A DNA stretch of 64,000 nt, taken from Exophiala sp. HKRS030 (taxonomy: Eukaryota > Ascomycota > Eurotiomycetes > Chaetothyriales > Herpotrichiellaceae). The stretch spans positions 4,216,001-4,280,000 of the forward strand of contig JAHWDD010000001.1 of NCBI GenBank assembly GCA_023897205.1, given 5' to 3'. Shown here piece by piece: positions 51,517 to 61,663 of the stretch (the first letter of the stretch is position 1; every line of letters starts with the position of its first letter). Both the position numbers and the translations under genes were made by a program. A model generated the notes under the pieces. The model did not search any database and had not been told where the DNA came from. It saw only the letters and a list, made by a program, of their open reading frames with translations.

Positions 51517-51526
51517 CGGGAGTCGG
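51517..51526 (+). promoter_or_regulatory. Cluster motif CGGGAGTCGG (copy 1)
   Basis: Exact 10-mer, 170 bp upstream of the sulfatase 1 start and 411 bp upstream of the sulfatase 2 start. Direct CGG repeat with 4-bp spacing, the form many Zn2Cys6 factors bind. Confidence 0.7.
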
Positions 51527-51535
51527 TGGTGGGTA

Positions 51536-51552
51536 CGGCAATCGGTCGTCGG
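51536..51552 (+). promoter_or_regulatory. Two overlapping CGG-N4-CGG sites
   Basis: CGGCAATCGG (51536-51545) and CGGTCGTCGG (51543-51552) share one CGG triplet, directly next to the exact cluster motif. Together they make a three-site array. Confidence 0.55.
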
Positions 51553-51936
51553 TGTCACACACACTCTCTCCACAACGGGGTGCCGTCTACAGAAAGTTGA
51601 ACCCCTTCCAAGGCCCATGTTGCTGATTGCTCCACAAACAGACCCTAGAATGAGGCGAACACGCGAATAAACTCTTCCGAACCAAACGCGTATCATAAAG
51701 TCCCTGGAAGTGGAGAGCGCAACACCGAGGCTCGCGCGTCACATCTGCTGTATCGTAAGATGGAAGATCGCTCGTCGGGCCCGAGGCAGCGTAAGTCCCG
51801 ACACTCGTAGACCAGACAGAATGTTCTGTGAAAAATAAATAACTGTTGAAGAATTTGGCGTAGGCACAATTCCTCGAAACAACCTGCTGCGTGCTTCAGA
51901 GTCGGCTGAAATATTCTATCGTGCCCTTGTTCAGAG

Positions 51937-58483: not shown

Positions 58484-58493
58484 CGGGAGTCGG
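58484..58493 (+). promoter_or_regulatory. Cluster motif CGGGAGTCGG (third copy in transporter promoter)
   Basis: Exact 10-mer about 400 bp upstream of the transporter start. Confidence 0.65.
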
Positions 58494-59387
58494 TCGTGCT
58501 CGCCAAGTTCGCATCCCTGAGCAAGAGAACAAGCGAGCAAGCTGTGGAACAGGTTGACAGAACCATGAACTCATCAAAGACCCCATATCTGCTTCCCACA
58601 TTCATAGTGTACGCCTGGCAAACGCAGACGGCAATCATGTCGGATACGTCCTTTTGGCCAAATATGACCAGAATGATACCCATGCTGCACACCGGAACCA
58701 ATGTTGAAGGCGACTAAAGCCTACGATTGAGGAACGACAGAAATCCAGAGCGAGGATTCGTAGAGAGGTTGAGTCTCGTGCATCTTTTCTCTCTACTCCC
58801 CCACTGTTCAGTTCATACAGATGACTTAGACCCTTACCAGCAATTGGCTCGTGTTAGAAATGCTTCGTAGCCGGCACTCCTAGGGGCATCGAGTTCTGGT
58901 CATTAGAACTACATATTCGGAACGCGTCAGGGGGCTTGACCAGAGAAACCAGGGAGACTGAGGAGACCCCCGAGAGCAAGAAGCCGTCGTTCAAATAGAA
59001 TTATCCTCCCTAATGGCAACGACGGCATGACCAGCAGAACAGGTGATACATGTTCAGGTCTGCCGTCTATTCGAAGCGAGAATGCCGTGCATTGTCAGGT
59101 TTAAACAAGAACCAGGTAAAAATAATGCATGAGGGAGAAGAGTTGCTCTGTCACTTAGTAAGGGCAAGTCTCCTACGATGTGCTTTCCGGGAGTAACCTC
59201 CAAGATCCCCTCTTTGCTGGGGGAGGAGGCTCTCGTTTACCGGTCCTCTGGTACTACAGATACCAACCTGCATCTATTCCCCCAGGTACTGTATCCTCGG
59301 GAAAGAAGTTTTTGATTCTATACATTCATTGAAGGTGAAATCCGTCCAAGTCCAAGATATCTCAAAAGCTTCTAAATAGCTCTCGAC

Positions 59388-61100
59388 TCACCATGCCTTT
59401 CCTTTTTGGCCGACCTTAGCCAGCTCACTCTGGAACATCTCGTAGGCATCGAACATGCCAGTTTCCTGATAGTATGTCTCGTAATGTGCAATCATCTCCG
59501 CGAGTTTTTTGGGCTCCTTCTCCGCCAGATCATGCACCTCTCCCAAGTCCTCGCTTACGTGGTACAACTCCCACTTACCGGGACCCCGTGGTGGCGGAAG
59601 GAACAGAGCTTTCCACTCCCCTACTCGGACCGCTGCAATTCCAAGCTGTTCCCATCCGACAATGTCATTCTCGCCACTGTATATTGATACCGAGTCTGAT
59701 TTGCTGGCCGACAACAACGGCAGCCAACTCTTCCCTCGGAGGGGAGCGACTTCGCGGCCACGGAAAGTGGGAGCCGGATGCTGAACCCCGGCAAGATCTA
59801 AAAATGTCGGTAAGAGGTCCATGACCGTGGTGAAGGTATTGTCGATAGTTCCAGCCCGTTGCTGTGGAATTCCACTGGGGTATCTCACAATACACGGACA
59901 CCGAATACCTCCTTCTGTGGTGAAAGATTTTGCCGCTCGAGCTGGTGCAGTTGAAGCACCGGCCCATTGAGGTCCATACCAGACAAAAGAGTTATGATTG
60001 CCCATATTTTCGAAAGAATTATCATAATACTTCTCGATAACATCTTTCAACGTTGCGCCCGCAAGAATTGGAATGGCTTCCAGTATATTTCCCTCGGCTC
60101 CATTGTCAGACATGAAAGCAATAAGAGTGTTGTCAAGTTCGTCGGTCGACCTCAAATAGTCGATAACACGTCCAACGTTGACATCGATGAGGTCTACCAT
60201 GGCGGCAAATATCTCCATGGCGCGGGAAGACTTGGCTTGTTCCTCCTTTGTGAATTCATCCCATGGCTTTGACCCTAGCGTGTGAAGTGGTGCAGGTTCG
60301 ACGTCGTTGGGCACAATCGCCTTCTCTATCATGGATTTGAGTCGACGGTTGCGCAAGCCCATGGGACCGTCATCGTACCAGCCCTTGTATTTCTTGACTA
60401 TTTCAGGAGGAGCCTGTAGGGGCCAGTGTGGAGCAGTGAACGCGAGGTAGCCAAAGAAGGGTTTTTCCTTTTCCTCATCCGTCCGTTCGCGCATGTATTT
60501 AAGGAAATAATCAGTGAAAGTATTAGAAGAGTAAAAATCCTTTGGCAGATCGGTCTCGCCGTCAATGAACTGGTCATTCTCCATCCAGAGACCTTTGTTA
60601 CCTTTCAACAATGCGCGAGGCTTCTCGGTGGTGTCGTAAAGTTGAGGCTCGTGGTTGAAATGGTTACCTGCGCCTGGAAGCGTCGAAAGGACCTTGGTGA
60701 AGCCCCGGGAGCAGGGCGCGGTCTCTTTCGTCAAGCCAAGGTGCCACTTCCCCGACATGACGGTGTGATAGCCGTTGTCCTGAAGGATCTCGGGCATGGC
60801 TGCAACCCGGTAGTTGAGGTAGCCTTCGTAGCCAGGCTTGTCGGCAAAGATGTGAGGGAACCTCTTCATCCGTTCTGCCATGGCTCCAAGGCCGGCAATG
60901 TGAGCGTCTGTGCCGGAGAGAAGCATGGCCCTGGTCGGCGAGCATGATGCGGCCGTGTGGAAATCCGTCAGGCGCAAGCCCTCCATGGCTATCTTCATCA
61001 GGTTGGGCGTGTCTATCTCCCCCCCAAAGGGTGAGGTGTCGCTGAATCCCAAGTCATCGGCCACGATGACCAAAAAATTCGGTCTCTTTTGGGGTGCCAT
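59388..61100 (-). CDS. S1-family arylsulfatase-like sulfatase 3 (CSPTR), intronless
   Basis: A 570-residue protein starting [20 protein letters not shown]. Motifs: [14 protein letters not shown] (metal), CSPTRAMLLSGT (Cys53, formylglycine site), [45 protein letters not shown] and [15 protein letters not shown]. It parallels sulfatase 2 block by block. It has a longer middle segment (GLWMENDQFIDGETDLPKDF and following) and no intron where sulfatase 2 has one. No signal peptide. It is divergent from sulfatase 4 and shares with it a 563-bp promoter with a cluster motif. Confidence 0.94.
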   Translation of the reverse strand: MAPQKRPNFLVIVADDLGFSDTSPFGGEIDTPNLMKIAMEGLRLTDFHTAASCSPTRAMLLSGTDAHIAGLGAMAERMKRFPHIFADKPGYEGYLNYRVAAMPEILQDNGYHTVMSGKWHLGLTKETAPCSRGFTKVLSTLPGAGNHFNHEPQLYDTTEKPRALLKGNKGLWMENDQFIDGETDLPKDFYSSNTFTDYFLKYMRERTDEEKEKPFFGYLAFTAPHWPLQAPPEIVKKYKGWYDDGPMGLRNRRLKSMIEKAIVPNDVEPAPLHTLGSKPWDEFTKEEQAKSSRAMEIFAAMVDLIDVNVGRVIDYLRSTDELDNTLIAFMSDNGAEGNILEAIPILAGATLKDVIEKYYDNSFENMGNHNSFVWYGPQWAGASTAPARAAKSFTTEGGIRCPCIVRYPSGIPQQRAGTIDNTFTTVMDLLPTFLDLAGVQHPAPTFRGREVAPLRGKSWLPLLSASKSDSVSIYSGENDIVGWEQLGIAAVRVGEWKALFLPPPRGPGKWELYHVSEDLGEVHDLAEKEPKKLAEMIAHYETYYQETGMFDAYEMFQSELAKVGQKGKAW

Positions 61101-61663
61101 GTTGTGCGGCTGAAAATGATATCAGCACTGGTTTCTGGAATGTGCTTGGTATATGCTTAGCTACTGAGCCCTGCACCAACGGTACAGAATTTTAGGGTCT
61201 TGGTCGATACGCCATCCTCAGGTATATAAGCCGTCAGGTTATGATGCATCTGGAACTCGGGGACGGGAGTCGGCACGGGTGTCGCTCAACGCTGTCGGAT
61301 GAGACCCCTTTTTTCCGGGGGTTGATCATTCGCAAGATCATGATGTGGGGGTGAAAGAATTGACCTGGAGCAACCTTTGCCCTGGTTCTGGCACTTTGAT
61401 GAGTACCGGCTCACGGCTCACCATACGGAGATGGGGCAAGAGTGAGCGCCTTTTGCTTCTCTTGTTGTGCTTGAAGCTTTTCCGCAGACACTACAAAAAA
61501 CCCCAGCACTCGGCTTCAGAGTCACACCTTACAAGCCTTTCACCTTGTCGTCCGCGTCCTATTTCTGTGGCCTCGTCGAGACTTTGTTTTATGCACAGTC
61601 ATCGCAGAGTCGAGCAGTTGCATAGTGTGGAAGAACCTGTCGCCTGTTGACCACTCTTCCAAG
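61101..61663. promoter_or_regulatory. Divergent promoter of sulfatases 3 and 4
   Basis: A 563-bp region. A TATA-like stretch at 61223-61230 lies about 125 bp from the sulfatase 3 start. The cluster motif at 61264-61273 lies a few tens of bases further upstream. Confidence 0.6.
61264..61273 (+). promoter_or_regulatory. Cluster motif CGGGAGTCGG (sulfatase 3/4 promoter)
   Basis: Exact 10-mer, followed after two bases by a further CGG (61276-61278). It lies 164 bp upstream of sulfatase 3 and 391 bp upstream of sulfatase 4. Confidence 0.7.

Follow-up and report, generated by a model that had tools for sequence, protein, structure and literature searches.

The window, by which we mean the whole 64-kb stretch of Exophiala sp. 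HKRS030 DNA analysed here, carries a cluster of sulfatase, glycosidase and sugar transporter genes alongside a gene for a zinc-cluster regulator. Its genes are the following.

46915 to 49290, minus strand: tandem Zn2Cys6 regulator, with two zinc clusters followed by a Fungal_trans domain; several introns; candidate reader of the sites described below
49785 to 51410, minus strand: sulfatase 1, N-acetylglucosamine-6-sulfatase-like by its solved relatives; 73% identical to its counterpart at the paralogue locus C4
51937 to 53653, plus strand: sulfatase 2, a paralogue of sulfatase 3; one intron
54111 to 56018, plus strand: GH3 enzyme, beta-glucosidase-like by its solved relatives
56322 to 58087, minus strand: Sugar_tr MFS transporter; introns present
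59388 to 61100, minus strand: sulfatase 3, like an arylsulfatase of the Pseudomonas type (solved relative 1hdh)
61664 to 63232, plus strand: sulfatase 4, matched best among solved structures by entries for sulfatase-family proteins, phosphonate monoester hydrolase and carrageenan sulfatase

The sulfatases, which make up four of the window's six presumed targets, are arranged around two divergent promoters, one shared by sulfatase 1 (minus strand) and sulfatase 2 (plus strand), the second by sulfatase 3 (minus strand) and sulfatase 4 (plus strand). Inspection by eye revealed no signal peptide in the GH3 enzyme. Its protein matches, of which the best 120 of 7,974 were listed, include entries named from black yeasts, Exophiala spinifera and Rhinocladiella similis among them. 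Given this combination of sulfatases, GH3 enzyme and sugar transporter, the simplest reading of the cluster is that it would serve to import a sulfated glycoside and to strip it step by step; the titles and abstract openings returned by our literature search name no such sulfatase cluster.

A first-pass annotation of this DNA had claimed five exact copies of a 10-mer, CGGGAGTCGG, in the cluster. An exact search bears this out, positions and strands included: the window holds exactly five copies, all of them intergenic and all within the sulfatase cluster. A variant in the GH3 promoter had been described as well, and we find it, as CGGATGTCGG, at 53884. The sites in the cluster promoters are distributed as follows.

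51517 to 51526, plus strand: CGGGAGTCGG, in the divergent promoter of sulfatases 1 and 2, 107 bp from the sulfatase 1 ATG
51536 to 51552, plus strand: CGGCAATCGGTCGTCGG, in the same promoter, with three CGG triplets at N4 spacing
53884 to 53893, plus strand: the variant CGGATGTCGG, in the promoter of the GH3 gene, at 230 bp from its ATG (54114)
58296 to 58305, minus strand: CGGGAGTCGG in reverse, in the transporter promoter, forming an everted pair with the copy at 58317, with 11 bp between them
58317 to 58326, plus strand: CGGGAGTCGG, in the transporter promoter
58484 to 58493, plus strand: CGGGAGTCGG, in the transporter promoter, 397 bp from the ATG
61264 to 61273, plus strand: CGGGAGTCGG, in the divergent promoter of sulfatases 3 and 4, 164 bp from the sulfatase 3 ATG
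61407 to 61416, plus strand: CGGCTCACGG, in the same promoter, a weaker CGG-N4-CGG site without the T preceding the second CGG

Each of the four target promoters contains at least one site of the pattern CGGNNGTCGG, and the distance between a site and the nearest ATG in the window ranges from 107 to 397 bp. Searching the window, we found no CGG-N4-CGG in the promoter of the tandem regulator itself. Five copies of CGGGAGTCGG were not reached in any of 100 dinucleotide shuffles of the window (mean 0.20, largest number 2). For CGGNNGTCGG, the part of the window occupied by the cluster (18 kb) yields seven sites against 0.48 expected, a comparison that is not independent, as the motif was discovered there. 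A general enrichment of unrestricted CGG-N4-CGG across the whole window was considered and rejected (34 sites against 30 expected); the signal resides in the promoters and in the N-N-G/A-T form.

Genome-wide, CGGGAGTCGG occurs 98 times in 59.8 Mb, fewer times than a reversed control pattern (147 copies). This frequency corresponds to about 0.10 copies per 64 kb, close to the chance figure of 0.12 that had been put forward earlier. When 98 sites were placed at random 20,000 times, the fullest 9.76-kb stretch held four, and five were never reached. A genome-wide search had been named beforehand as a check that could refute the first-pass interpretation, should the 10-mer prove just as frequent in unrelated promoters or in coding DNA; run here, it did not do so, and nowhere else in the genome does one stretch contain as many copies. 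As the 10-mer was chosen after the fact, we also enumerated all 10-mers of the window with at least five copies in 10 kb. There are 21 of these, 20 of which are period-3 or period-6 repeats, CGGGAGTCGG being the sole dispersed one. An origin of the copies in chance, low-complexity sequence or promoter copying, for which the post hoc choice of a 10-mer from 64 kb might be invoked, thus appears extremely improbable in view of the genome-wide scan statistic and, as set out below, of the paralogue test and the absence of shared flanks.

The further claim that the 10-mer is restricted to the promoters of this cluster holds for the window and fails for the genome, where the remaining 93 copies lie at 91 other places. 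We examined 80 of these 91, 20 of them with about 10 kb and 60 with about 0.8 kb of sequence. By a codon-usage score with a sensitivity and specificity of about 0.94, for which the window itself served as calibration and which labels the window site at 58484 and one paralogue site coding-like, 39 of the 80 places are coding-like and 41 noncoding-like, compared with 39.9% coding-like among random positions. No promoter preference of CGGGAGTCGG outside the cluster was therefore seen among the 80 places scored, where it looks like background. Distal regulon members were likewise considered and rejected: the 20 places with about 10 kb each hold seven CGGNNGTCGG sites besides the 20 picked copies, 5.3 being expected. 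By eye, the ORFs at two of these 20 places, L027 and L012, resemble housekeeping genes, and a triple at C4:3648958/3650436/3655922 is found among the distal candidates.

An independent set of loci is provided by the regulator's own paralogues. A protein search of the same genome returned, after the regulator itself, the loci C4, C3 and C2 as the best matches. C4 comprises a tandem regulator, a sugar transporter, a GH3 gene and a sulfatase gene; two sulfatases accompany the tandem regulator of C2. At C3, a tandem regulator, the first cluster of which is interrupted by a presumed intron, is accompanied by a transporter; the C3 site is placed between the two, and no sulfatase lies nearby among the matches listed. 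C4 and C2 were known to adjoin sulfatases when they were chosen, and the pattern CGGNNGTCGG was already fixed before the test. Around the three paralogues it occurs seven times in 25 kb, against 0.66 expected from its genome-wide count of 1587 (P 6e-6), which is about ten times the genome density: C4 has three copies of CGGATGTCGG, C2 two of CGGCTGTCGG and one of CGGAAGTCGG, and C3 a single CGGAAGTCGG. Relative to a local background that contains the 20 picked copies, the excess is weaker (P 0.036); the genome-wide rate is the unbiased background for this comparison. The enrichment at three paralogue loci lends support to the earlier reading of the 10-mer as a direct repeat for a Zn2Cys6 protein, and the recurrence of the site beside three related regulators makes it very probably the predicted docking site of the cluster's own regulator. 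In a blastn comparison of nine promoters, the longest match between different promoters did not exceed 20 bp, indicating that the motif is not a remnant of copied promoters, despite the 73% identity between sulfatase 1 and its C4 counterpart. Since these two genes are alike while their promoters share no match longer than 20 bp, the motif persists where the remaining promoter does not.

With sulfatases making up most of the presumed targets in the window, and present at C4 and C2 too, the site could conceivably be a general sulfur- or sulfatase-control element. However, among 21 sulfatase loci, CGGGAGTCGG or CGGATGTCGG lies near only two, the window cluster and C4, both of which have a tandem regulator. 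None of the 19 others has either sequence nearby, a weak control as only 0.76 were expected there, so that the result signifies no enrichment at other sulfatase loci rather than depletion; these 19 include C2, which carries other variants. Moreover, C3 has a site with no sulfatase nearby among the matches listed. We consider an element of this kind very unlikely.

Alternatively, a different Zn2Cys6 factor encoded elsewhere might bind the site, with the local regulator acting through something else. Zn2Cys6 genes are numerous in this genome (892 candidates, 150 of which were scored), and CGG-N4-CGG is known for another factor, Candida Tac1, which is discussed below. Against this, the site recurs beside this regulator's own paralogues, and it is not enriched at 14 Zn2Cys6 places on contig 1 (those among the 150 scored that lie on the part of the contig with a complete site list), where two sites were found within 6 kb against 4.5 expected. 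Binding by such a factor thus seems unlikely to us. One of the 14 places is a more distant, fifth tandem protein at C1:594973, around which CGGNNGTCGG is absent from C1:518641 to C1:604569; a further two-cluster protein is located at C1:4974497.

Among 63 classes defined by spacing and orientation, direct CGG-N4-CGG is the most enriched in the window promoters (9 sites against 1.5 expected) as well as in the paralogue promoters (11 against 2.3), the limits of the latter having been set after the sites were seen. The count over whole paralogue loci, which is free of that choice, again places direct N4 first, here among 93 classes (24 against 11.2 expected, P 6e-4). An open scan covering 83,386 triplet dyads placed only an AT dyad above CGG-4-CGG for the combined set. 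For the paralogue set alone, CGG-4-CGG came 59th, with 58 dyads above it; the 14 best dyads shown for this set are AT-rich, as intergenic composition would favour. Within the 20 promoter CGG-N4-CGG sites, a T precedes the second CGG in 18 and a G occupies the position before it in 15, the N4 being most often N-[A/T]-G-T.

The spliced regulator contains two complete C-X2-C-X6-C-X(5-12)-C-X2-C-X6-C clusters in one chain, as well as a Fungal_trans middle domain (PF04082, E 7.3e-13); the Pfam search used one regulator exon, and its Zn_clus score is that of the second cluster. The top protein match (P0001) is 100% identical and named Exophiala oligosperma, and the named sources of homologues include Exophiala, Aspergillus, Fusarium and Cryphonectria. 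By regular expression, 19 of 37 homologues have two clusters, five have one and 13 none; several of the latter are fragments, yet six span 462 to 593 residues. We aligned 21 homologues, namely the 19 with two clusters together with P0002 and P0006, a set selected largely for two clusters. In this alignment, 11 of the 12 cluster cysteines are invariant and the twelfth is conserved in at least 90%; the lysine lying three residues ahead of the third cysteine is invariant in both clusters. In Gal4, the corresponding lysine contacts CGG. Because the set was picked largely for two clusters, this invariance supports retention of the contact within the type, not its universality. In a predicted single-chain structure, each cluster forms two short helices, and the linker at residues 48-70 is of low confidence. 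A fold search with the regulator gave no match at E <= 0.001, the weak ones including Gal4-type clusters and CBF3/Cep3.

The presence of two clusters per chain and of two CGGs per direct repeat suggests a reading in cis, in which each CGG would be taken by one cluster, so that the polarity and spacing of the operator would be built into a single polypeptide. We put forward with considerable reservation, as less likely than not, that the two-cluster family may read CGG-N4-CGG in this way, as a monomer, and that its paralogues may each govern a sulfated-sugar utilisation island. Alternatively, the direct repeat could be bound by two chains, a regulator homodimer contributing one cluster from each, as has been proposed for Tac1. 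This is a variant of the operator reading that differs in mechanism alone, and on present analysis it is a tentative possibility. The variable stretch between the clusters, 23 to 50 residues across the 19 two-cluster homologues, does not argue for rigid spacing in cis, and Tac1, a reported homodimer, uses the identical CGG-N4-CGG spacing. On the other hand, the 21 aligned homologues, largely two-cluster by selection, keep the cysteines and the lysine of both clusters. Zn2Cys6 regulators usually, but not universally, have a coiled-coil dimerisation helix after the cluster, and no such helix is modelled at residues 97-152, where the single-chain prediction has a pLDDT under 50 at 106-145.

The CGG-N4-CGG operator itself is already known, from Candida albicans Tac1. 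Tac1 is described as a Zn2Cys6 factor that binds CGGN4CGG, with the drug-response element CGGATATCGG, and a homodimer has been proposed from docking and gel shift (PMC10370356, PMC8211738, PMC12248020). A Zn2Cys6 regulator and a CGG-N4-CGG direct repeat are thus common to both systems, CGGATATCGG and CGGATGTCGG being one base apart. Tac1 differs in being a reported homodimer, for which those passages mention no second cluster, and in its drug-transporter targets, whereas the neighbours here are sulfatases, a glycosidase and a sugar transporter, and the N4 is mostly N-[A/T]-G-T. AmyR and InuR of Aspergillus contain a single zinc cluster each. They resemble the present case as regulators of sugar-use pathways with a CGG direct repeat, but their repeat is CGG-N8-CGG, with a spacing of 8 instead of 4 (PMC12941744). 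Two Zn2Cys6 domains per predicted protein are described for CCG_02279 and CCM_00582 of Cordyceps-type fungi, which appear as family-survey entries in a discussion of DUF3468-type proteins, the passages giving no site, target or function (PMC6471507). The two-cluster architecture is also mentioned for one basidiomycete septin-domain protein. Our literature search, covering titles, abstract openings and passages, found no functional study of two-cluster Zn2Cys6 regulators.

We regard it as probable, with a likelihood of roughly 75%, that the 10-mer is an operator bound by the cluster's tandem Zn2Cys6 regulator, through which the cluster genes would be jointly switched on. Within the cluster, CGGGAGTCGG would then be the most frequent version of a direct-repeat operator CGG-N2-[G/A]-T-CGG, and its occupation by the tandem regulator would activate the four sulfatases, the GH3 glycosidase and the sugar transporter together, the presumed substrate being an imported sulfated sugar or glycoside. 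From these cis elements we infer that the genes form one regulon. For the two-cluster type of Zn2Cys6 regulator, these results provide a specific proposed operator and a protein that may read it, together with four loci, and how a two-cluster chain reads DNA can thereby be probed directly with a single protein domain and short oligonucleotides. For a black yeast, they predict which sulfatase, glycosidase and transporter genes would act together.

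The public model of the window regulator (P0001; gene at 46915-49290, minus strand) comprises 369 residues and stops at about 48133. Since protein homology to longer Aspergillus relatives runs on downstream, to about 47314, this model was probably cut off early at an intron. Another protein with two zinc clusters, both in one frame, is encoded elsewhere in the genome (L096, C1:4974440-4974850); its sequence type differs.

At two places, three CGG triplets repeated every 7 bp form an array that could perhaps offer additional registers for binding:

Window 51536-51552, triple CGG array
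Paralogue locus on contig C4, near L030:140-156, triple CGG array

On the same contig, CGGGAGTCGG occurs twice and CGGATGTCGG once inside 7 kb (G000, C4:3648958-3655922), and both CGGGAGTCGG copies receive a noncoding codon-usage score; this group is a possible distal target. Within the window, other recurrent 10-mers are dispersed outside the sulfatase cluster:

Window 9378, 19142, 19641, 21313, 29465, 38336, 38642, 38709 and 44991, ATACGGAGTA/TACGGAGTAC-type 10-mers

For the regulator homologue P0003 and the GH3 homologue P0041, the latter among the best 120 of 7,974 matches, the longest contig is in each case 51,180 bases, and because this length is shared, the two genes may be linked in another black yeast.
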